NCBI GenBank assembly: GCA_027486345.1
Contig: JAIXPH010000028.1
Coordinates: forward strand, 1 to 64,000
Reading direction: 5' to 3'
Length of the DNA stretch: 64,000 nucleotides
Source: Paracoccaceae bacterium
GTDB taxonomy: Bacteria; Pseudomonadota; Alphaproteobacteria; Rhodobacterales; Rhodobacteraceae
Part shown: in pieces, positions 23,201 to 36,895 of the stretch
How positions within the stretch are numbered: the stretch's first letter is position 1
Layout of the letters: every line of letters starts with the position of its first letter
The notes under the pieces: model-generated
Database searches by the model: none
Seen by the model: only the letters and a program-made list of their open reading frames with translations
Told to the model about the DNA's origin: nothing
Translations under genes and position numbers: made by a program

Positions 23201-23952
23201 TGGGCTATATCGACAGCCTGATCGACGCGCGCCGGGCGGGGCATGTCTCTGACCACATCCATCTTGGTCTGTTCGCGGGTCCCGCCCTGTCGCTTGAGGC
23301 TGCACAGGTTGCGATGGCCCGCCACCACATATCGGCACTTGACCTGTGCGATGCGCTGGATGTTGTGGATGTGGGCTGCGGCTTTGGCGGCACGCTGCGG
23401 ATGGTCGATAAGGATTTCTTAGGTAAGTTGACAGGTGTCAACATCGACCCCCGCCAGATCGCCCTCGCCCGCGAGGGCGCGTGGCGCAACCCCGTGGACT
23501 GGCTGACCTGCGACGCATCGGCCTTTTCCCAAGGCCGCAGCGGATGGGCCGACCGCATCCTGTCTCTTGAGGCGATGTTCCATTTCCCCGACCCCGCCGG
23601 GTTCTTCGCCACCTGCGCCAAGGCCCTGCGACCGGGGGGAAGGCTGGTCGTCAGCACCATCCTGCTGGATCGCAGCCCCTCTGCCCATGCCGTGGCCCAA
23701 GGCTTCGCCCCTTGGCCTGTCCCGGACATGACCTTGGACGATCTGACGGGGATGGCCACCCATGCCGGGTTTCAGGTGCAAGACATCCAGAACCTCGCCC
23801 CCCTGACCTTGCCGGGGTTTGACTGGATGTGCCCAGCCCCACCGCCCGAGATCACCGACCACCCCGTGATCGAACTCCGCCGCTTGTTCACCGCAGGTCA
23901 GGCGTCCTATCCGATGCTGGTGCTTCAGGCGGGCGGGAAGACCCAGAAGTAA
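23197..23952 (+). CDS. Class I SAM-dependent methyltransferase
   Basis: 'DVVDVGCGFGGTLRMV' motif I, 'LSLEAMFHFPDPAGFFATCAKALRPGGRLVVS', N-terminal 'HIHLGLF'; ATGA overlap with upstream gene. Confidence 0.88.
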   Translation: MMGYIDSLIDARRAGHVSDHIHLGLFAGPALSLEAAQVAMARHHISALDLCDALDVVDVGCGFGGTLRMVDKDFLGKLTGVNIDPRQIALAREGAWRNPVDWLTCDASAFSQGRSGWADRILSLEAMFHFPDPAGFFATCAKALRPGGRLVVSTILLDRSPSAHAVAQGFAPWPVPDMTLDDLTGMATHAGFQVQDIQNLAPLTLPGFDWMCPAPPPEITDHPVIELRRLFTAGQASYPMLVLQAGGKTQK

Positions 23953-25229
23953 TCCCCACTCGCCCCACCCGCTGCCGCCGCCTCATCGGTCAGGCGCTGG
24001 GCCATGCGGTCGATGCTGTCCCCCGGCCACCCCCGGCACGAGTGCATCTTCAGGCTGACGGGGTCATAGACCATCTCATCACTCGCTGGGGCACGTGCCA
24101 TCAGCGCCGAAGGCAGGACGGCGCAATGATAGACCCGCAGACCGGTCCCCAAAGCGCGGGCGCGCTCAAAACTGGTCAGGAAACGCTCCGGCGTATCCCC
24201 CGGCAGGCCCATGATGATTTCCGTGGTGACAGAGGCGATGGACCGCAGCGCCCCCAACAGCCCGCCCAGTCGCGCCGGATCAAACTTGCGCTCCACATGA
24301 CGCAAGACGGCATCGTCAAAGGATTGCAGCCCGATCCCGATATGCGGCGCACCGACGCCTTCCAGAAAGCGCAGATGGTCTTCGGTCAGGTTGCGGGGAT
24401 AGACCTCTGCGATCAGGGCGCGGTCCTTCAGAAAACCCGTCGCCGCCGCCGCATCCCGCACGGCGGCAAAGCCCGACGCGTTCAGGTTCAACCCCGCATC
24501 GGCCAAGAGCACCGCCCCCAGACCCAGACGCGCCATCGCGTCAAACTCGCCCGCGATACGATCCGCCGACAGCACGTTGCGGGGCGCTTCCATCACGCCC
24601 CATTCGCAGAAGGAGCAGGTGAAGGGGCAGCCGCGATATGTCTCCAGCAGACCAATCCCCCCTGCCGGGATCAGCCCTTGGCGGTAGGGGGACGCCAGAT
24701 CATCCATCACCGCCCGCGCCCCCGGCGCGCTTTGCCGCCAGACGCCATCGCGGCGCAGCGTCAGACCGCGGAGACGCGCCAAGGCGGCAGCGCTGCGGTC
24801 CGTCGCGGCGACGAGGGCGGGGAAAACGGACTCACCTTCGCCTTCGACCAAGACATCGCAGACAGCATCTAGTGCAGAAAAGGGTGCATGGCCCAGCATA
24901 TTGGGCCGTGCTGAGGGTCCGCCCATGACGATCAAGCGCGATGGATCATCCTGCGCCAGCAGCGTCATCACCTGCGCCAACTGCGGCAGAGACCAAAGAA
25001 ACGCCGACCCCGCCACGATGTCGGGATCATAAGCGGCAACCTCGGCCGCCACGGCCTCTGGCCCCCGCTCACGCTCATCCCAGATGCGCAGCTCCAGCCC
25101 GTCCAGACCCGCCGCCTGCACGGCAGCGGCCACCATGTACATCCCCATGTTCGGGATGAATGGCGGCAGCGCCGGATTGTCCGCCGGATACCACGCCAAA
25201 AGTGCGACGCGGCGGCACGTCCGTTTCAT
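23925..25229 (-). CDS. B12-binding-type radical SAM protein
   Basis: 'ETYRGCPFTCSFCEWG' CxxxCxxC; N-terminal B12-binding-like 'DPDIVAGSAFLWSLPQLAQV...IVMGGPSA'. Confidence 0.87.
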   Translation of the reverse strand: MKRTCRRVALLAWYPADNPALPPFIPNMGMYMVAAAVQAAGLDGLELRIWDERERGPEAVAAEVAAYDPDIVAGSAFLWSLPQLAQVMTLLAQDDPSRLIVMGGPSARPNMLGHAPFSALDAVCDVLVEGEGESVFPALVAATDRSAAALARLRGLTLRRDGVWRQSAPGARAVMDDLASPYRQGLIPAGGIGLLETYRGCPFTCSFCEWGVMEAPRNVLSADRIAGEFDAMARLGLGAVLLADAGLNLNASGFAAVRDAAAATGFLKDRALIAEVYPRNLTEDHLRFLEGVGAPHIGIGLQSFDDAVLRHVERKFDPARLGGLLGALRSIASVTTEIIMGLPGDTPERFLTSFERARALGTGLRVYHCAVLPSALMARAPASDEMVYDPVSLKMHSCRGWPGDSIDRMAQRLTDEAAAAGGASGDYFWVFPPA

Positions 25230-26530
25230 TTCCAGAAGGACCACCAGTATTCGCCGCCCTCACCTCCGCGCTTGGCGACGCGCTCGTTCAACTCGGCCCG
25301 CATCGCGGTCAGGTCATCGGCGGACCATGTCCGGTTGGAGATCATCGACATGTTGACCGGATCAAAGTTCAGATCCCACGTCGGGTCGGACCGGCTGAGC
25401 AGGGCATCGGGCAGAACAAGGCAATGATAGACCCTGACCGATGTGACCGGCAGCGACAGCGCGAAATCCAGCGTCTTGCGGAAGCCGTCGGGCGTGTCTT
25501 CGGGCAGGCCCATGATGATCTGGATTTCCAGACCCGCGACCTTGGACAACGCCTCCACCGCAGGGGCAAAGCGGCGCATGTCGAAGGGGCGGCTGTGCGC
25601 TTTGAGCACGCGTTCATCCATGCTTTGCAGGCCCACGCCCAGATAGGCGGTGCCGACCGAGGACAGGAATTCCAGATGCTCGGGCTTGGCCATTGTCGGG
25701 TAAATCTCGGCCCAGAACAGCGCCTCGGACAAGATGCCCGTCCGGGATTGGGCTTCGGACAGGTTGCGAAAGGCCTTGCCGTTCAGGTTCAACCCGGCAT
25801 CCAGCAGAAACACCGCCGGCGCCTTCAGCGCCTTGAAGGCGTGCAATTCCGCCTCGATATAGTCGGCAGAGAAGACGTCGCGCGCGGGGCGGGTCACGCC
25901 CCAAGCGCAGAAATTGCACGACAAGGGGCAGCCGCGATAGGTTTCCAGATAGGCCACATGCTCGGGCTGCATCAGCCCCATCTGATAGGGGGAGGGGATG
26001 TCGGCCATGTCGAAGCCGCCCAAGATGCCCGTCACCTGCCAGCCCGATCCGTCCGGCTTGCGGGTGTAAAGGCCCGGCGTTTCGGCCAGCGTGGTGCGGT
26101 CCAGCCGGGGCAGGGCCATCAATTGCTGGATCACAGCCTCGCCATCGCCTTCGCAGATCGCATCCACCACCTTGGATGGTCCCCGGAAATGCCAATGGTC
26201 AAAGGCATCGCGCCGCGCCGATGGGCCACCGAACAGGAACAAGGCCTCGGGCTGCTGGGCGCGGATGTCGGCGGCAAGTTGCAACAGCGACGTCATCGAC
26301 CAGACATAGACCGAAAATCCGACCAGATCGGGGCCGAAATCGAGGATGGCTTTCAGACCCGCTTCGGCCCCGGTCAGGCCGATGTCAAAGAAGCGCACCT
26401 CTGTGTCATGCGGATATTGGCCGGATTTTGCCGCCGCATGGACGCGGTGAATGCCATAGGAGGGCATCGGCAAAGGCATTTCATTGCCGTCGAAGGGCGG
26501 AGAAGAACACACCAGCGCCAGTTTCCGCAT
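25226..26530 (-). CDS. B12-binding-type radical SAM protein
   Basis: 'ETYRGCPLSCNFCAWG' CxxxCxxC; N-terminal 'GPDLVGFSVYVWSMTSLLQLA...FLFGGPSA'; ATGA overlap with next gene. Confidence 0.87.
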   Translation of the reverse strand: MRKLALVCSSPPFDGNEMPLPMPSYGIHRVHAAAKSGQYPHDTEVRFFDIGLTGAEAGLKAILDFGPDLVGFSVYVWSMTSLLQLAADIRAQQPEALFLFGGPSARRDAFDHWHFRGPSKVVDAICEGDGEAVIQQLMALPRLDRTTLAETPGLYTRKPDGSGWQVTGILGGFDMADIPSPYQMGLMQPEHVAYLETYRGCPLSCNFCAWGVTRPARDVFSADYIEAELHAFKALKAPAVFLLDAGLNLNGKAFRNLSEAQSRTGILSEALFWAEIYPTMAKPEHLEFLSSVGTAYLGVGLQSMDERVLKAHSRPFDMRRFAPAVEALSKVAGLEIQIIMGLPEDTPDGFRKTLDFALSLPVTSVRVYHCLVLPDALLSRSDPTWDLNFDPVNMSMISNRTWSADDLTAMRAELNERVAKRGGEGGEYWWSFWK

Positions 26531-26720
26531 CTTACCCCCTGCCCAGGACGCGCGCGCCGTGCTGCTCCACGCGTCTGGAATTGCCGCATTTCCGAGATCG
26601 CATTTAAGGGCCTGTGGAACATGGTGCCACCAACCCCATCCGATCGCGCGGGACACCCATTCGGATGCCTGCACCTGCCCACCCAAGTGCAAGAGCCATG
26701 CCGTATGGGGGCAGTCTGGG

Positions 26721-27620
26721 TCAGGTCGGGCGGGTTTGCGTCTGTGCCGCGCGCATGAGGACCAGCGCCTGAATGCCGTGGGTGGTGGCAAAAGCGGCGG
26801 CCTTCGGTCCCATCGCCATCAGGGCGGTCGCCATGGCGTCAGCCATCATGCAGGTCGGGGCCAGCACGGTGACAGAGGCCGGGGCATCCACCAGCGGCGC
26901 GCCGCGCTTGGGGTCCATGGTGTGCGAAAGCCGTGCCCCGCGCACGGTGACGAAGTGGCGGTAATCGCCGGATGTGGCAATCGCCCCGTCTGTCAGGGCA
27001 AAGATGGAATGCGCGGCGTCGGCAGTCGGGTCTTGCACCGCCACGGACCACGGGCTGCCATCCCGGCGCGGGCCAGTGGCGCGCAATTCGCCGTCAATCT
27101 CGCAAAGGGCGTGGGTCAGGCCCCTTGCAGTCAGGAGGTCTGCCAGACGGTCAACGGCATAGCCCTTAGCGATGCCGGACAGGTCCAAGGCCAATGGGGC
27201 CGTTGCGCGGGCGCAACCGTCGCCAAGTTCAAGCGCCCGCGTGGCGGGAACGCGAGGGGCAGCACTGGCGGCGCGGATGGCGGCAAGGCTGGGGGCGGTG
27301 TCGATGAACCCCCAAGCGCGCACCGCATCGCCAAGGTTCATCTCGAAGGCGCCGTCGGTCAGGTGGCTGACCTGCAAGCCCGTTTGCAGGACGAACAGCA
27401 GTTCGGGCGGCAGGGTGACCCATTCCCCCACAGGCGCGGCGTTCAGGCGCATCAGATCGCTGTCGGGGGTCCATGTGGACATCTGGCGGTCCACCAGATC
27501 GACCGTCGCCTGACAGTCGGCCTGCAATCCCGCGCTGTCCGTCACTGGCCCGTCGAGGGTGACTTGCCAGCGGGTGCCCATCGAGCGGCCTTCCAGCCGT
27601 TCAGTAACTGTCTTCGGCAT
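26721..27620 (-). CDS. apbE: FAD:protein FMN transferase (ApbE family)
   Basis: 'GRSMGTRWQVTL', 'LDLSGIAKGYAVDRLADLL', 'DGAIATSGDYRHF', 'LSHTMDPKRGAPL'. Confidence 0.92.
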   Translation of the reverse strand: MPKTVTERLEGRSMGTRWQVTLDGPVTDSAGLQADCQATVDLVDRQMSTWTPDSDLMRLNAAPVGEWVTLPPELLFVLQTGLQVSHLTDGAFEMNLGDAVRAWGFIDTAPSLAAIRAASAAPRVPATRALELGDGCARATAPLALDLSGIAKGYAVDRLADLLTARGLTHALCEIDGELRATGPRRDGSPWSVAVQDPTADAAHSIFALTDGAIATSGDYRHFVTVRGARLSHTMDPKRGAPLVDAPASVTVLAPTCMMADAMATALMAMGPKAAAFATTHGIQALVLMRAAQTQTRPT

Positions 27621-29808
27621 AGCGTCCCTCTGCCTTCAGGCTGCGCGGGGAAAGTCCCACGGGGGCAAGGATATCGGCCAGTGCCACCTGCACGCCTTGG
27701 GCCATCTCGCGCCCGCCGCAGACCATGATGCGCGCGCCGTGGGTGACCAGACCGCGCAACGCCTCGGCATCGTCGCGCAGGGCGTCTTGCACATGGCGGC
27801 GCGGGGCGGTGCTGCGCGAGAAGGCGCAGGTGAGGTGATCCAAGCGACCGTCCTTTTGCCAAGCGGTCAGTTCCTCGGCGTAAAGCAGATCGGTTTCCGC
27901 ACTTCGCGCGCCGAACCACAGATGGACGGGGCGGCGTGCGCCCTCGGTCCGCACAAAGCCTGCCAAGGGGCCGATCCCGGTGCCCGCGCCGATCAGGATC
28001 AGCGGTGCAGCGCTGCGGTCGGGCTGGAAGCCGGGGTTCGGGCGCAGGAAGGCGCTCACCTGCGCGCCGATGGGCAGCGAGAGCAGTTGGTTGGAGCAGA
28101 GGCCGCCGACATGTTGGCGCACGGCGATTTCGATGAATTTATCGCTGTGGCCGGAAGCGAGGGAATAGAACCGGGGCAGGGTCGATCCTTCCGGCAGGAT
28201 GCCGAGCAGGTCGCCGGGGGCGAAGCGGGCGAAGCCTTGGCCGGTGATGCGCTGCCACAGGGTCGATTGCGGCAGGGCAAAACGCAGGATCGCCACGGGC
28301 GCATCGGGTGAGGCGTAGTCGCGCCGTATGGTCAGGGTCAGAGCTTGGGTGCGGGGCGCTTGGGGTTGGTGGTTCAGGGTCAGCGCCACCCCCAGATGCG
28401 CGCCCAGATCGCGGCCCCAGCGGGCGAAATTCTGCGCCGACTGGCGGTCGATCCTGCCCAGCGGCAAGGGCATGGCCCAGCCTTTGGCCTGTGCTGTGTC
28501 GTGCAGCGTGGCGGCATAGCCGCAATAGACCGGGAAACCGCTGTCGCCGAAGCCGAGGAGGATCAGCTCCATCCCCTTGGGGACGTTCGCGGCGCGCAGC
28601 CGCTCCACCGCGCCTTTGGCGGATGAGGGCGCATCGCCATCGCCCCAAGTCGCGGCCATCACGATCAGCCGTTTGGCGCTGCGGTAACGGTCGGGGGAGA
28701 GGGTGGAGAGCGCGGCCAGATGCACGCTATGACCTGCCGTTTGCAGGGCCTGGGCAAGGGTGGTGGCAAAGCCCCATGTCGTGCCGCCCTCACTGGCGAC
28801 AAGGATCACCGTCTGGGCCTTGTCCGCTGCAACCATCCCCGCCAGACGCGGGCGGGATTGCCATGTCCGCCACCAGATCAGGCCGCCGGTGACGGCCAGC
28901 GCGGGAACCGTCGGCACCATCAGGCCAAGGATCAGGCCCCACAGCGCCGCGCCGTCGCCGGTGTGCAAAAGGTAAGCCCACTCCCACGCCGCCTGCCACG
29001 GGCCGTTGTCGGCCCAGACCAGCAGCGCGCCGTTGCCCGGATCGACATAGCCGCTGCCGGTGGAGGTGGTCACGGCAAAGGCGTCGGTCGGGTCGTCTGC
29101 CACAGGAAAGGTCAGGTCGCGCAGATCGGCCACGGGGATGGCTTGCAGCGCGGGCAGGTCTTGCGCAGGCAGGGCGGTCAGGCCGCTGACCGTGGCCGGA
29201 AAGGCGGGGTTTGCAGCATCGTCGGGGGTCAGCGAAAAGGTGGCCGCCACCATGAACAACCCCGTGAGGGACGAGATCAGCAGCCCCGCCACCGCCACCC
29301 GCGCCAGCAGCGTGTGCCAGCGGCCAGAGACTCCGCGCCGTTGGGGGGCGAACCAATGCCGCCAACCGCCCATGCGCCGCGCCACCAGCATCGCACCAGA
29401 GACCGCCATCAGCAGCATCATGGCGGCCCCTGCGGCGACGGTCCACCGACCCGCATCCTCCAGCAACAAGGCGCGGTGCAGGGATTTCAGCCAGCTTTCC
29501 ACCGCGCCCGCATCGGCGCTGCCCATGTCTGCCCCGGTCTGGGGATCAATCACCGCAGCACCCGGCGTGTCGCCGTCGAACCAATAGGCCGTGATCCGGC
29601 CTGATGGGGCGCGGCGGATTTGTTCCACCGCCGGATGCGCGGCCTGCACCACGGCGGCAAGCTCTGCCACGCTTTGCCCCGCCACCACCGCAGGCCGGGT
29701 CAACCGATCCAGCGCCGGAAACACCGACAGCGCGGCACCGCCGAGGGCGATGACGATCAGCAGGACAGCGGCCAGAAGGCCCGGCCAGCGGTGCAGGAAG
29801 CGAAGCAT
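27601..29808 (-). CDS. PepSY-TM / flavodoxin / FAD-NAD(P)H reductase fusion protein
   Basis: N-terminal PepSY-TM 'LHRWPGLLAAVLLIVIALGGAALS'; flavodoxin-like 'ILVASEGGTTWGFATTLAQAL'; CysJ/FNR-like 'RFYSLASG', 'IGAGTGIGPLAGFVR', 'WFGARSAETDLLYAEEL'. Confidence 0.88.
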   Translation of the reverse strand: MLRFLHRWPGLLAAVLLIVIALGGAALSVFPALDRLTRPAVVAGQSVAELAAVVQAAHPAVEQIRRAPSGRITAYWFDGDTPGAAVIDPQTGADMGSADAGAVESWLKSLHRALLLEDAGRWTVAAGAAMMLLMAVSGAMLVARRMGGWRHWFAPQRRGVSGRWHTLLARVAVAGLLISSLTGLFMVAATFSLTPDDAANPAFPATVSGLTALPAQDLPALQAIPVADLRDLTFPVADDPTDAFAVTTSTGSGYVDPGNGALLVWADNGPWQAAWEWAYLLHTGDGAALWGLILGLMVPTVPALAVTGGLIWWRTWQSRPRLAGMVAADKAQTVILVASEGGTTWGFATTLAQALQTAGHSVHLAALSTLSPDRYRSAKRLIVMAATWGDGDAPSSAKGAVERLRAANVPKGMELILLGFGDSGFPVYCGYAATLHDTAQAKGWAMPLPLGRIDRQSAQNFARWGRDLGAHLGVALTLNHQPQAPRTQALTLTIRRDYASPDAPVAILRFALPQSTLWQRITGQGFARFAPGDLLGILPEGSTLPRFYSLASGHSDKFIEIAVRQHVGGLCSNQLLSLPIGAQVSAFLRPNPGFQPDRSAAPLILIGAGTGIGPLAGFVRTEGARRPVHLWFGARSAETDLLYAEELTAWQKDGRLDHLTCAFSRSTAPRRHVQDALRDDAEALRGLVTHGARIMVCGGREMAQGVQVALADILAPVGLSPRSLKAEGRYAEDSY

Positions 29809-29818
29809 GGAAGTATCC

Positions 29819-30298
29819 TCAGAAGCCGTAGGTGAAATCGGCGATGTAGCGCCCGCCCGTCACGGCCTGACCTGCGCCAGCGGCGGTGAGGGGGACCGAG
29901 ATTTCGTTCGGACTGTCGCGCATATCCTCGACCGCGGCGTCGATGTGCAGGGTGTAACCCGCATCGAACAGCGCATCGGCAAGGTCCATGTCCAAGGTCA
30001 GTGACTGGCCCGCGCCGACACTCGCGCCGGTGATGCCATCAACCTGCGCGGGATCACTGCCGGTGAAGCGCGCCCAGTCGGACAGGTGGCGGTAGTATTT
30101 GGCCTTGCCCCCCGCCATCCACAGGCTGCCCGCATAGGCCCCGGCCGGATCGGTGACATAGACGGCGAGGTATGCCCCCCGCCCGCCATAGCTGTTCATG
30201 TTGACCGTCAGGGTGACGGGTTTGGCGAAGGCGAGGCCCGGCAGGACCAATGCGGTCGTCAGGGCAAGGGCGGCGAAAAGCGGCTTCATCGGTGTCAT
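29819..30298 (-). CDS. DUF2271-like secreted protein, putative flavinylation substrate
   Basis: Signal peptide 'MKPLFAALALTTALVLPGLAFA'; 'AYLAVYVTDPAGAYAGSLWMAGGKAKYYRHLSDWAR...DGITGASVGAGQ...YTLHIDAAVED'. Confidence 0.8.
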   Translation of the reverse strand: MTPMKPLFAALALTTALVLPGLAFAKPVTLTVNMNSYGGRGAYLAVYVTDPAGAYAGSLWMAGGKAKYYRHLSDWARFTGSDPAQVDGITGASVGAGQSLTLDMDLADALFDAGYTLHIDAAVEDMRDSPNEISVPLTAAGAGQAVTGGRYIADFTYGF

Positions 30299-30311: not shown

Positions 30312-30641
30312 TCAGTTTGTACTGGCGGTGGGCGCTTTTCCGTCGCCGAAGAGGCCGTTTGCGGGGGGCGCGACCGTGCCCGCAGGGGCGGCATTGCCAC
30401 GGCCTGCGGTCGGGCAGTCCTCGTCCTCCTCGTCGCAGTCATCCTCGTCCGAGTCGTCGCCGCCAAAGGACAGCCAACCGCCGTCTTCGTCGTCCTCATC
30501 GTCGGACACTTGCATCAGGGATGCGCCGACATCCGCGATGGCGCGGGCATGGACGGCGGGCGCGGTGGGGGCCATCGGCGTCTGGGCCGAGGCGGCCATA
30601 GCGCTGCCCAGAAGGATCAAGGTCAGGGGAAGTTTCATCAT
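30312..30641 (-). CDS. Small secreted highly acidic protein
   Basis: Signal peptide 'MMKLPLTLILLGSAMAASAQ'; 'DDEDDEDGGWLSFGGDDSDEDDCDEEDEDC'. Confidence 0.65.
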   Translation of the reverse strand: MMKLPLTLILLGSAMAASAQTPMAPTAPAVHARAIADVGASLMQVSDDEDDEDGGWLSFGGDDSDEDDCDEEDEDCPTAGRGNAAPAGTVAPPANGLFGDGKAPTASTN

Positions 30642-30708: not shown

Positions 30709-31059
30709 CTATTGGTCGTCACCGCCGTTTTCGGTGCCGTCATGATCGTCGCCGTGGCTGTCCTGATGGTCGCTGTCGTGACCGTCGCCTTCCTCCTCGA
30801 ACTCGATCTCTTGGATGTTCAGCGAGCCGGGGTTCAGCTTGGCCTCAATCGCGCGGCCTTGGGCGTCGGTGCCGATCACCTCATAGCAGCCGTCGTCGAT
30901 GCGGATGCGTCGGATGGTCCAGCCTTGGGCCTGAGCCACCGCCGCCACGGCGCTGCGCGGCTGCCAGTCGCGCATTGGAACGGAGCAATCATCGCCCGCC
31001 CATGCCGCCGGGGCGGCCAGCAGCGTGGCAAGGCCAAAGACCGTCAAAAACCTGTTCAT
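30709..31059 (-). CDS. Secreted PepSY-domain protein with His/Asp-rich tail
   Basis: Signal peptide 'MNRFLTVFGLATLLAAPAAWA'; PepSY-like 'GWTIRRIRIDDGCYEVIGTDAQGRAIEAKLNPGSLNI'; tail 'DGHDSDHQDSHGDDHDG'. Confidence 0.8.
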   Translation of the reverse strand: MNRFLTVFGLATLLAAPAAWAGDDCSVPMRDWQPRSAVAAVAQAQGWTIRRIRIDDGCYEVIGTDAQGRAIEAKLNPGSLNIQEIEFEEEGDGHDSDHQDSHGDDHDGTENGGDDQ

Positions 31060-31108
31060 CGGCCACACTCCGTTTGCGGACCCCTCATGTCAGCTTGTTT
31101 GCGCGCTG

Positions 31109-31164
31109 AACCTGACGGCTTCCTGAAGCACGGGGAAAAACCGCTTCAGGTTGGCGTCAGGTTG
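31109..31164. promoter_or_regulatory. Symmetric double direct-repeat operator in divergent promoter region
   Basis: AACCTGAC..CCTGAAGC..GCTTCAGG..GTCAGGTT nested dyads; each half holds TCAGG repeats at 11-bp spacing. Confidence 0.7.
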
Positions 31165-31219
31165 CCAGTGCATGAGGAAGGGGACAGGATGGACCGGCAA
31201 CGGGGCAAGCAGGGGCAGG

Positions 31220-31879
31220 ATGCGGATACTTCTGATCGAGGATGACCGGGTGATCGGCAGCGCGATCCGCGATCAGGTGGACAGCGAGGGCCATTCCGTC
31301 GATTGGGTGCAGCGGCTGAATGCGGCGGGTGATGCGCTGGCCGGGGCGCATTTCGACCTGATCCTGCTGGATCTGATGCTGCCGGATGGTCTGGGGATTG
31401 CGTTCCTGAAGGCGTTGCGCGCCAAGGGGCAGGTGGTGCCGGTCATCATCCTGACCGCGCTGGACCAGATTTCGGACCGGATTGCCGGGCTGAAGGCGGG
31501 GGCGGATGACTATCTGGTCAAACCCTTTGATCTGGATGAGCTTTCCGCCCGGATCGGCGCCGTGGCACGGCGCTATGGCGGCAATCCCAATCCGGTGCTG
31601 ACCTTGGGCGATCTGGACATCGACAGCGCCGCCCGCCGGATCACGCGCAAGGGCCGCGCCATCCCCCTGACTGCGCGGGAATGGGTGCTGTTCGAGACGT
31701 TCTTGCAGCATCCCGGCCAGCTTTATTCCAAACCGCAGCTTGAAGAGCGCCTCTATTCCTTTGACGCCGAGGTGGAGAGCAACACCATAGAAGTGCACAT
31801 CAGCCGCCTGCGCAAAAAGCTGGGCGCTGCGGTGATCGTCACCGAACGCGGGCTTGGCTACCGCCTGGGCGCGGCATGA
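31220..31879 (+). CDS. OmpR-family response regulator (QseB/PmrA-like)
   Basis: 'MRILLIEDD', 'DLILLDLMLPDG', 'GADDYLVKPFDLDEL', C-terminal 'QLEERLYSFDAEVESNTIEVHISRLRKKLG'. Confidence 0.93.
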   Translation: MRILLIEDDRVIGSAIRDQVDSEGHSVDWVQRLNAAGDALAGAHFDLILLDLMLPDGLGIAFLKALRAKGQVVPVIILTALDQISDRIAGLKAGADDYLVKPFDLDELSARIGAVARRYGGNPNPVLTLGDLDIDSAARRITRKGRAIPLTAREWVLFETFLQHPGQLYSKPQLEERLYSFDAEVESNTIEVHISRLRKKLGAAVIVTERGLGYRLGAA

Positions 31880-33216
31880 GGGGGCCCGCGTCGATCCGTC
31901 TGCGCACGGCCTTGGCGCTGTCGCTGCTGGTCACGGCGATCTGGCTGATGGCGGCACTGGCCACCTTCCGGCTGCTGACCGACGAGATGGATGAGGTCTT
32001 TGATTCCGCCCTGCAGGAAACCGGGCAGCGCATCCTGCAACTGGCCGTGGTCGATATCCTCAGCCGCGAGGAGGACGTGGCCGCCCAGCATCTGGCGGCG
32101 CTGGGCCCGCATGAGGAATACTTCACCTATGTCGTGCGGGATGCGGGGGGCCGGGTGCTCTTGGCGTCGCATCGCGCGGCGGTGGAGGAATTCCCGCTGC
32201 TGGACGGGCCGGGGTTTCAGCAAGACGGGGCGCATCGCTATTACCAAGAGGCAGCGGTGAGCGGATCGGTGGTGCTGACCATCGCCGAACCCGTGTCCCA
32301 TCGGCGCGAGGCGTCGCGTGAGGTGGCCTTGGCGCTGGGCTTGCCGCTGGTGTTGGTCTTGCCCCTGTCGATCATCGCCATCTTTTTCGGCCTGCGCTAT
32401 GGGCTCAAGCCGTTGGATATCTTGCGCCGTCAGGTGGCGGCGCGGGGGGCGGATGATCTGTCCCCCTTGGCCGACGCCGGATTGCCACAGGAACTGCGCC
32501 CCATCGCAGCGGGGATGAGCGCGCTTTTGGCGCGGCTGGAGCAATCCTTTCAAGCCGAACGCAGCTTTGCCGCCCATGCCGCGCATGAGTTGCGCACGCC
32601 CTTGGCCGGGGCGGTGATGCAGGTCCAACGCCTGCGCAAGGCCACGGCGGAGCCATCGACCGCCGCCAAGGCCGCCGAGGTTGAATCCGCGCTGAAACGC
32701 CTGTCGCACCTGTCGGAACGGCTGCTGCAACTGGCACGGGCCGAGGGCGCGCGCCTGACGCTGGCCGAGGCTGCCGATCTGCGCCCGGTATTGGATCTTG
32801 TGGCGGGGGATTTCACCCGGGCGGGGGCCGATCTGCGCCTGACCCTGCCTGATGCGCCGATCCTCAGCCAGATGGACCCGGACGCCGCCGCGATCATCGC
32901 GCGCAACCTGTTTGAAAACGCGCTGCGCCATGGCACCGGCCCGGTCACAGCGGCGTTGTCCCCGGATGGCTGGCTGGTGGTGGACAATGACGCGCCCGCC
33001 ATTCTGCCCGACCTGTTGGCGCAGCTGACGCGCCCCTTTGCGCGGGGCGGGCCGGGCGATGAGGGCGCGGGGCTTGGCCTTGCCATCGTGTCCCGCATTG
33101 CCGAACGTGCGGGGGCTGAAATGCGCCTGACCTCTCCGCTTCCCGGCCAGACCCGCGGCTTTCGCGCGGCGGTGCGGCTGATCCCCTTTCACAGTGACGA
33201 ACGGAACACCCCATGA
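31876..33216 (+). CDS. Sensor histidine kinase (QseC-like)
   Basis: 'SFAAHAAHELRTPLAGAVMQVQRL' H box, 'NLFENALRHG', 'GAGLGLAIV'; ATGA overlap with RR. Confidence 0.92.
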   Translation: MRGPASIRLRTALALSLLVTAIWLMAALATFRLLTDEMDEVFDSALQETGQRILQLAVVDILSREEDVAAQHLAALGPHEEYFTYVVRDAGGRVLLASHRAAVEEFPLLDGPGFQQDGAHRYYQEAAVSGSVVLTIAEPVSHRREASREVALALGLPLVLVLPLSIIAIFFGLRYGLKPLDILRRQVAARGADDLSPLADAGLPQELRPIAAGMSALLARLEQSFQAERSFAAHAAHELRTPLAGAVMQVQRLRKATAEPSTAAKAAEVESALKRLSHLSERLLQLARAEGARLTLAEAADLRPVLDLVAGDFTRAGADLRLTLPDAPILSQMDPDAAAIIARNLFENALRHGTGPVTAALSPDGWLVVDNDAPAILPDLLAQLTRPFARGGPGDEGAGLGLAIVSRIAERAGAEMRLTSPLPGQTRGFRAAVRLIPFHSDERNTP

Positions 33217-33920
33217 CCCTGTCCTATCAATCCGCGCATGAGGAAGTGCATTTCATCAACCGCTCTGGCTGGCTGCGCGCCGCCGTTCTGGGCGCGAATG
33301 ACGGGATTGTCTCCGTCTCGTCGTTGATCGTCGGGGTGGCGGCGGCGGACCCGTCGCCCGGCACGGTGCTGGTCGCCGGGATGGCGGGCTTGGCCGCGGG
33401 GGCCATGTCGATGGCGGCGGGGGAGTATGTCTCGGTCAGTTCGCAATCCGACATTGAACGCGCCGACATCGCCCGCGAGAAACAGGCACTGATCGACACG
33501 CCCGAGGCGGAGGAGGCCGAACTGGCCTCGATCTACGAATCCCGTGGCCTGTCCAAGGAAACCGCGGCGCTGGTGGCGCGGGAGTTGACGGCGAAGGACG
33601 CCCTGGGCGCGCATGTGCGGGATGAGTTGGGCCTGTCCGAAGTGCATGCCGCCAACCCGTTGCAGGCGGCGGCGGCCTCGGGCCTGACCTTCACCGTCGC
33701 GGCGGCACTGCCGGTCGCCGCCGCCGTGCTGGCCCCCGAGGGCCAGATCATCCCGACCGTGGTGGTGGCCACGCTGGTCTGTCTGGCCGGTCTGGGCGCA
33801 TTGGGTGCCAAGGCGGGCGGCGCGCCACTGGCCCCCGCCACGATGCGCGTGCTGTTCTGGGGTGCCGCCGCCATGGCCATCACAGCGGGTGTGGGGCGGA
33901 TTTTTGGTGTGAGTGTGTGA
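33213..33920 (+). CDS. VIT1/CCC1-family transporter
   Basis: 'GWLRAAVLGANDGIVSVSSLIVGVAAA', 'GMAGLAAGAMSMAAGEYVSVSSQSDIERADI'. Confidence 0.92.
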   Translation: MTLSYQSAHEEVHFINRSGWLRAAVLGANDGIVSVSSLIVGVAAADPSPGTVLVAGMAGLAAGAMSMAAGEYVSVSSQSDIERADIAREKQALIDTPEAEEAELASIYESRGLSKETAALVARELTAKDALGAHVRDELGLSEVHAANPLQAAAASGLTFTVAAALPVAAAVLAPEGQIIPTVVVATLVCLAGLGALGAKAGGAPLAPATMRVLFWGAAAMAITAGVGRIFGVSV

Positions 33921-35336: not shown

Positions 35337-36782
35337 TTATTGTGCCGTCAGCCGCAGAACGGCGATGTTCTTGCTGCCGTCTGTCGCGGTGGTGGTGCCT
35401 GCAACGACGATCAGCTTGTCGCCCTGCACGGCCACGCCGGTCGCCATATCATCGCCATCCCCAAGCGAGATGTTGACGATCCCGTTTTCGGTGCCGTCAT
35501 CCGCGGTGCCAAAGCCCTGGTCCAGCGCGCCTGCCGCATCATAGCGGGCAACGGCGATGTTGGTGCTGTCGCCTTCCTGATGGTAACCCGCCACAACAAT
35601 GCTGCCATTGTCTTGGACCGCCACGCCGGTGGCAAAGTCATTGCCTTCGCCCAGCGAGGTAGAGACAAAGCCGTTCGGGGTGCCATCTTCCGACACGCCG
35701 AATGCGTCATCCGGGGTGCCATCCGCGTTCAGACGGGCCACGATGAAGTTCGACGATCCATCCGCCGACACGCTGTCACCGGCCACAACGATCTTGCCAT
35801 CGGCCTGCAGCGCCAGATCGCGCGCGACATCATTGCCGTCACCCAGCGAGATGTTGACAAAGCCTTCCGGCGTGCCGTCATCGCCCGATGCGCCAAAGGT
35901 GGCATCCGGTACGCCCGATGCGTCATAGCGCGCGACCAGCATGTTGGACGATCCGTCTTCGGCGACACGGGACCCGGCGACGACGATCTTGCCATCCGCA
36001 TCCAGCGCCACAGCGTTGGCGGTGTCATTGCCTTCGCCCAGCGAGGTGGCGACAAAGCCGTTCGGGGTGCCGTCTTCGGACTGGCCAAAGCTTTCGTCCA
36101 CGCTGCCATCGGCGTTCAGGCGCGCGACGATGATGTTGGTCGATCCGTCCGCAACCACGCTGTCGCCGACAACAACGATCTTGCCATCGGCCTGAATGGC
36201 CACGTCGCGGGCCACGTCATTGCCGTCGCCGAGCGAGATGTTAACGATACCATTAGCGGTGCCATCATCGGCGGTGCCAAACCCTTCGTCCAGCGTGCCA
36301 TCAGCGTTGACGCGCAGAACGACCATGTTGGTCGATGCGCCCTCTTCGTGATAGCCCGCCACGACAACCTTGCCATCGGCCTGTGCCGCGATGGCGGTGC
36401 CGAAGTCATTGCCGTCACCCAGCGAGATATTCACCACGCCATTCGGGGTGCCATCGTCTTCGCCAACGCCAAAGCCCGCGTCAAACGCGCCCTCTGCCGT
36501 GTAGCGCACGATGACGATGTCATTGCTTTCGCCATTGTGACGGTTGCCCACCACCATGACCGTGCCATCCGCGCCAACGGACAGGTCTTCGCCCACATCA
36601 TCGCCATTGCCCAGCGAGGTGGCGACAACGCCTGCCGGGGTGCCATCTTCCTCGCCCGCGCCGAACGATGCGTCCAACTCGCCTGCGCCGCCCGCAGCCC
36701 ACGCGATGCTGGCGATCAGGGCGAGTGCCGAGACCGTGCCCAGACCGATGGCTTTCTGGCCAATCTTGGTTTCAAACTTCAT
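35337..36782 (-). CDS. Secreted delta-60-type repeat protein, predicted beta-propeller
   Basis: Signal peptide then seven units of about 62 aa of type 'DGTPNGxVxxSLGxGNDxaxxvalqaDGKIVVAGxxxxxxGSxNxxVARxnAdGxxDxxFG'. Confidence 0.88.
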   Translation of the reverse strand: MKFETKIGQKAIGLGTVSALALIASIAWAAGGAGELDASFGAGEEDGTPAGVVATSLGNGDDVGEDLSVGADGTVMVVGNRHNGESNDIVIVRYTAEGAFDAGFGVGEDDGTPNGVVNISLGDGNDFGTAIAAQADGKVVVAGYHEEGASTNMVVLRVNADGTLDEGFGTADDGTANGIVNISLGDGNDVARDVAIQADGKIVVVGDSVVADGSTNIIVARLNADGSVDESFGQSEDGTPNGFVATSLGEGNDTANAVALDADGKIVVAGSRVAEDGSSNMLVARYDASGVPDATFGASGDDGTPEGFVNISLGDGNDVARDLALQADGKIVVAGDSVSADGSSNFIVARLNADGTPDDAFGVSEDGTPNGFVSTSLGEGNDFATGVAVQDNGSIVVAGYHQEGDSTNIAVARYDAAGALDQGFGTADDGTENGIVNISLGDGDDMATGVAVQGDKLIVVAGTTTATDGSKNIAVLRLTAQ

Positions 36783-36895
36783 GTCGATAATCCTCATGCC
36801 GATGGTCGACCGGCCAGCCGCCGTCATTGCCCGGCGATGCTTTCCCCGAGGCCAAGACGCGACGCTGCCCTGATCTGGTGGCAGGATAGGCGCAT

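Follow-up and report, generated by a model that had tools for sequence, protein, structure and literature searches.

Where does an exported protein receive its covalently bound FMN when the only flavin transferase at hand seems to stay in the cytoplasm? This question is raised by an operon of a Paracoccaceae bacterium (assembly GCA_027486345.1), in which the gene for the FAD:protein FMN transferase ApbE is linked to that of an exported DUF2271 protein. We analyzed positions 1 to 64,000 of contig JAIXPH010000028.1, here termed the window, along with the genome and related loci. The location of DUF2271 flavinylation is the point that matters: modification outside the cytoplasm, as described for exported flavinylated proteins, would require FAD to reach that side of the membrane, which is a problem in itself. 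A widespread system working in the opposite order, with flavin loading ahead of export, would avoid this problem and would mean that Sec carries chains with covalent FMN. The present genome, which pairs a single signal-less ApbE with a single exported target, makes the question directly testable.

The DUF2271 protein (159 aa; 29819..30298, minus strand) is encoded by a reading frame with an RBS-like AGGAGA before its start. It matches PF10029 over profile positions 3-134 of 136 (115.9 bits, cut-off 27.3; E=1.4e-33). This is its sole profile match; FMN_bind (PF04205) was not detected on it. A Sec-type signal peptide, MTPMKPLFAALALTTALVLPGLAFA, precedes the mature domain, and the same signal occurs on the orthologues. 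Within the peptide QVDGITGASVGAGQ, residues 87-93 read DGITGAS (minus strand, 30040-30020), with D87 encoded at 30038-30040 (GAT), T90 at 30029-30031 (ACC) and S93 at 30020-30022 (AGT). The heptapeptide fits the ApbE-substrate pattern D-x-x-[ST]-G-A-[ST], in which the acceptor stands last, here Ser93. Coordinates, peptide and the PF10029 match all agree with a first-pass annotation of this DNA, which had reported DGITGAS at 30020-30040 in a DUF2271-like protein. It had also placed apbE two genes downstream in the same apparent operon, where it indeed lies, sharing 20 bases with the intervening gene, and had named lack of conservation of the motif in orthologues as one outcome that would count against the call. 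The predicted structure of the DUF2271 protein (mean pLDDT 70, motif loop partly <50) was not used, and neither was a fold search, which returned no match below E=0.001; a sequence search for a solved structure of the protein found none.

In composition shuffles of the mature protein, D..[ST]GA[ST] arose in 0.5% and [ST]GA[ST] in 4.9% of cases. The first figure is by itself weak evidence, and the second, a chance of about 5% for the bare motif, is what favors regarding it as a structural coincidence in a protein that binds no flavin. By sequence comparison, conservation settles the motif as beyond chance. Orthologues keep it: [DNAS]GITGAS is present in 80/80 named loci with varied synonymous codons. 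We also compared two operon types in a wider set, one containing DUF2271 with a PepSY-reductase fusion, as here (47 loci), and one with a plain PepSY protein (21). The present type has [ST]-[GS]-A-[ST] at the equivalent place in 47/47 loci, with the motif Ala in 47/47, the Gly in 46/47 and Ser as the last residue in 46 (Thr in 1). Coincidence is further opposed by the linkage to apbE and by the published result on another DUF2271 protein (PMC8238504), and we give it almost no credence. The leading Asp is found in 21/21 loci of the plain PepSY type and in 16/47 of the present type, where Asn is commoner (17). It is thus absent in about two thirds of the orthologues, which on sequence grounds do not need it, whereas passages of a 2025 review call it strictly conserved and describe minor effects of an Asp-to-Ala exchange (PMC12052999). 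Among the DUF2271 proteins adjoining a plain PepSY_TM gene (L066-L104), the motif Ala is replaced by Pro in 10/21 (for example, DGVTGPT) and the Gly by Ser in 5/21, with the last Thr invariant.

Which motif residue would take the FMN can be judged from characterized substrates. According to the same review, FMN joins the C-terminal Thr/Ser of D-x-x-[ST]-G-A-[ST] (PMC12052999), and in Vibrio harveyi NqrC, with a motif region of Asp223-Thr229, it is attached to Thr229 (PMC4348036). Because known ApbE sites use the C-terminal residue of the motif, the predicted acceptor should be Ser93 (30020-30022) and not Thr90. The two operon types differ at position 7 (Thr in 21/21 loci of the plain PepSY type, Ser in 46/47 of the present type), whereas both allow T or S at position 4, a pattern in line with position 7 as acceptor. 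The first-pass annotation had named Thr90, the Thr of TGAS, and the invariance of T90 in the 80 closest named loci would suit that choice. With T or S at position 4 in the wider set, an acceptor-like pattern at position 7 and the use of the last residue at known sites (PMC12052999, PMC4348036), modification of Thr90 is extremely improbable.

Taken together, family membership, motif conservation, gene linkage and a published experiment on another DUF2271 argue that the protein very probably bears covalently attached FMN. In that experiment, reported in 2021, the DUF2271 protein of Amantichitinum ursilacus was flavinylated on co-expression with its ApbE, and a Thr-to-Ala exchange at the predicted site abolished the modification (PMC8238504). 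DUF2271 flavinylation has thus been known since 2021 and is settled in outline, and the core call made here is of a known kind; the proposal of DUF2271 as covalent-FMN carrier for the co-transcribed ApbE correctly applied an established rule and is supported apart from the residue named. One ApbE and one DUF2271 were found in the genome. We considered and rejected other ApbE substrates: no member of the known families FMN_bind, NqrB/RnfD or DUF3570 was found in the genome, and the PepSY fusion has no conserved [ST]GA[ST], which occurs in only 8/43 of its orthologues and at scattered positions. The motif is also absent from the PepSY_2, kinase, regulator and VIT1 proteins encoded nearby. The same observations weigh against an ApbE that serves a cytoplasmic target while DUF2271 stays unmodified in vivo. 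Such an arrangement has a model in the cytoplasmic Klebsiella ApbE, described as serving a cytoplasmic fumarate reductase (PMC12052999), but every close orthologue keeps the DUF2271 motif, and we consider it very unlikely here.

Between the DUF2271 gene and apbE lies a minus-strand gene (27601..29808) for a 735-aa fusion of PepSY_TM (PF03929, 5.8e-36), flavodoxin (PF00258, 7.9e-14) and FNR-type NAD(P)H reductase (PF00175, 2.5e-11) parts, with diflavin reductase matches in the PDB. In the aligned sequences, its residues His6, His111, His165 and His282 show complete or nearly complete conservation and are candidate haem ligands, and we propose the fusion as the trans-membrane electron donor. Upstream of DUF2271, the minus strand encodes a small exported acidic protein of no known family (30312..30638), which has homologues in the equivalent position in many genomes of the family, and a small exported PepSY_2 protein with a His/Asp-rich tail (30709..31068; PF13670, 2.7e-23). 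The former is very acidic and a possible cation binder. Divergently oriented on the plus strand are genes for an OmpR-type, PmrA/QseB-like response regulator (31220..31879), a QseC-like sensor histidine kinase with a 2CSK_N sensor region (31876..33216) and a VIT1/CCC1-family iron/manganese transporter (33213..33920; PF01988, 2.2e-64). The gene order two-component system, PepSY_2, DUF2271, PepSY-reductase and ApbE is kept in most relatives, the nearest named ones being Rhodobacteraceae. In most of them the PepSY_2 gene adjoins two-component genes, and its product probably acts together with the divergently encoded sensor kinase; VIT1 adjoins the same operon in some. A PF03929 protein in the cluster together with a signal peptide on the DUF2271 target are the features of a PepSY-like flavinylation system, and the gene neighborhood is consistent with a PepSY-type electron relay.

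Several further features of the neighborhood were recorded. The PepSY_2 protein divergent from regulator and kinase (30709-33216) resembles a DbfQRS module, the Pseudomonas aeruginosa counterpart of which is BqsRS, and metal-sensing control of the DUF2271 operon is possible. Two B12-binding radical SAM genes (23925-26791) share the strand of apbE and lie immediately downstream, and a repetitive DUF5122 beta-propeller protein is encoded at 35337-36827.

The operon ApbE (299 aa; 26721..27620, minus strand) is a clear member of its family (PF02424, 256 bits, 5.8e-76), with GIAKG, ATSGDYRH, SHTMDP and AD-ATA segments and an alignment to solved ApbEs in the PDB (1.1e-48). Unexpectedly, it has none of the N-terminal Sec, lipoprotein or Tat signals of a textbook exported ApbE, and this pairing of a signal-less ApbE with an exported target is the seemingly unreported point of the locus. 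Passages of flavinylation papers, including PMC8238504 and PMC12052999, do not discuss an exported protein served by an ApbE that lacks a signal. A hidden upstream start that would add a signal peptide was rejected: 13 residues separate the upstream stop from the fold, and the ATG at 27620 has an RBS-like sequence ahead of it. We likewise found no second, exported ApbE, and indeed no ApbE besides that of the operon in the genome (97.8% complete), although at ~98% completeness a second could be missing. At least four other genomes (G003, G064, G096 and G104) likewise yielded the operon ApbE alone.

The absence of a signal extends to the relatives. Called by a hydropathy rule with inspection rather than by SignalP, signal peptides were seen on 0/42 operon ApbEs of the present type and on 0/76 ApbEs of the named loci, a set that partly overlaps with the 42. 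The distance from upstream stop to fold in operon ApbEs is usually ~17 residues, which leaves no space for a signal whichever start is used. As controls, the same rule was positive for DUF2271 proteins in 79/84 and 79/80 cases and for response regulators in 1/38. Among ApbEs unlinked to DUF2271, of which many come from the same genomes, a signal is present in 65/67 cases by score and 67/67 by eye, with evident Tat signals on the two below score (L195 and L210); a 68th (L176), an operon-type ApbE at a contig end, was left out of the 67. Among the stand-alone ApbEs of the plain PepSY operon type, 19/24 are without signal and 5/24 are ambiguous by score and not signal-like by eye, while two DUF2271-ApbE fusions (L075 and L105) carry one. 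In the ApbE tree, each signal-less group forms one clade. Separate origins of the two groups were not upheld, as the AU test does not reject placing both in one clade (p-AU 0.949). The signal-less counts are therefore not independent, since absence of the signal amounts to one or two evolutionary events. Some DUF2271 genes, including L081, L083 and L089, have no nearby ApbE gene, with PepSY_TM present in these three; at least one genome with a DUF2271 lacking an adjacent ApbE (G454, of the L083 kind) encodes a signal-peptide ApbE elsewhere.

Since no ApbE other than the signal-less one was found in the genome, the DUF2271 precursor would be modified in the cytoplasm, and FMN loading of DUF2271 probably precedes its export. 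The route of export bears on this order. No credible Tat motif was found in 80 DUF2271 precursors, and Tat export was rejected, the three RR hits representing upstream in-frame starts. DUF2271 is, therefore, presumably unfolded during export. A seven-residue motif is described as sufficient for ApbE (PMC12052999), which makes the unfolded precursor a plausible substrate. The alternative is flavinylation in the periplasm, in the usual way, by an ApbE that gets there by an unrecognized route: the 2025 review places the action of ApbEs with exported substrates outside the cytoplasm (PMC12052999), and those fused to DUF2271 have signals. Against this, the stretch ahead of the ApbE fold is usually too short to hold a signal peptide, ApbE cannot ride along folded with a DUF2271 that has no Tat signal, and no second ApbE was found in the genome; periplasmic loading thus appears unlikely.

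Under the preferred order, ApbE would use cytoplasmic FAD to attach FMN to the unfolded DUF2271 precursor, which would then leave through Sec with FMN attached. We know of no precedent for FMN threaded through Sec. Cytoplasmic NAD(P)H would reduce the PepSY fusion at its FAD/FMN reductase portion, and electrons would traverse the membrane via the haems of the fusion to DUF2271, which would carry FMN as a phosphoester on Ser93 and pass them to a periplasmic acceptor. As an overall explanation, a trans-envelope electron relay with DUF2271 loaded by the ApbE of its own operon before Sec export is the reading we favor, with some reserve. That the acceptor is ferric iron, the likeliest candidate, is an even call. 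For an iron function of the operon, the VIT1 neighbor is circumstantial evidence; PepSY_TM/DUF2271/ApbE clusters have been tied to iron reduction (PMC8238504), and a related operon in Caulobacter is upregulated when iron uptake fails (PMC11870441). More generally, DUF2271 proteins could, with about equal chances of being right or wrong, be flavinylated in the cytoplasm by a dedicated signal-less ApbE branch and cross Sec flavin-loaded and unfolded, with no FAD export needed. Not every DUF2271 system need follow this order: the ApbE tested from A. ursilacus is described as 'signal peptide-truncated' (PMC8238504), and other systems may therefore use an exported ApbE.

Comparison with known systems places the locus among several partial matches. 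NosX and lipoprotein ApbEs share the enzyme family but carry Tat or lipoprotein signals, the same kinds as on other ApbEs in relatives of the present genome. The cytoplasmic ApbE of Klebsiella pneumoniae, as the review describes it, also has no signal peptide, but its fumarate reductase substrate stays in the cytoplasm, whereas here the substrate is exported. The A. ursilacus pair shares DUF2271; its flavinylation was determined experimentally and is here predicted from sequence, its acceptor is Thr, and its ApbE is described with the signal peptide removed for expression. DbfQRS-type modules (PMC12714742) likewise pair a sensor kinase and regulator with an adjacent small exported PepSY protein, a unit that is here joined to a flavinylation operon. 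Closest are the PepSY_TM/DUF2271/ApbE clusters described by Meheust et al. in 2021, including ones with NAD-binding domains and ones with VIT1 (PMC8238504). This PepSY-like flavinylation system has in common with the present locus a DUF2271 with [ST]GA[ST], ApbE, PepSY_TM, an NAD-binding subset and the association with VIT1. The main text of that study does not discuss the export state of the DUF2271-linked ApbE, which here lacks a signal, and the present locus is further distinguished by a predicted Ser acceptor, a leading Asp that orthologues can dispense with, and the two-component system and PepSY_2 protein encoded beside the operon.
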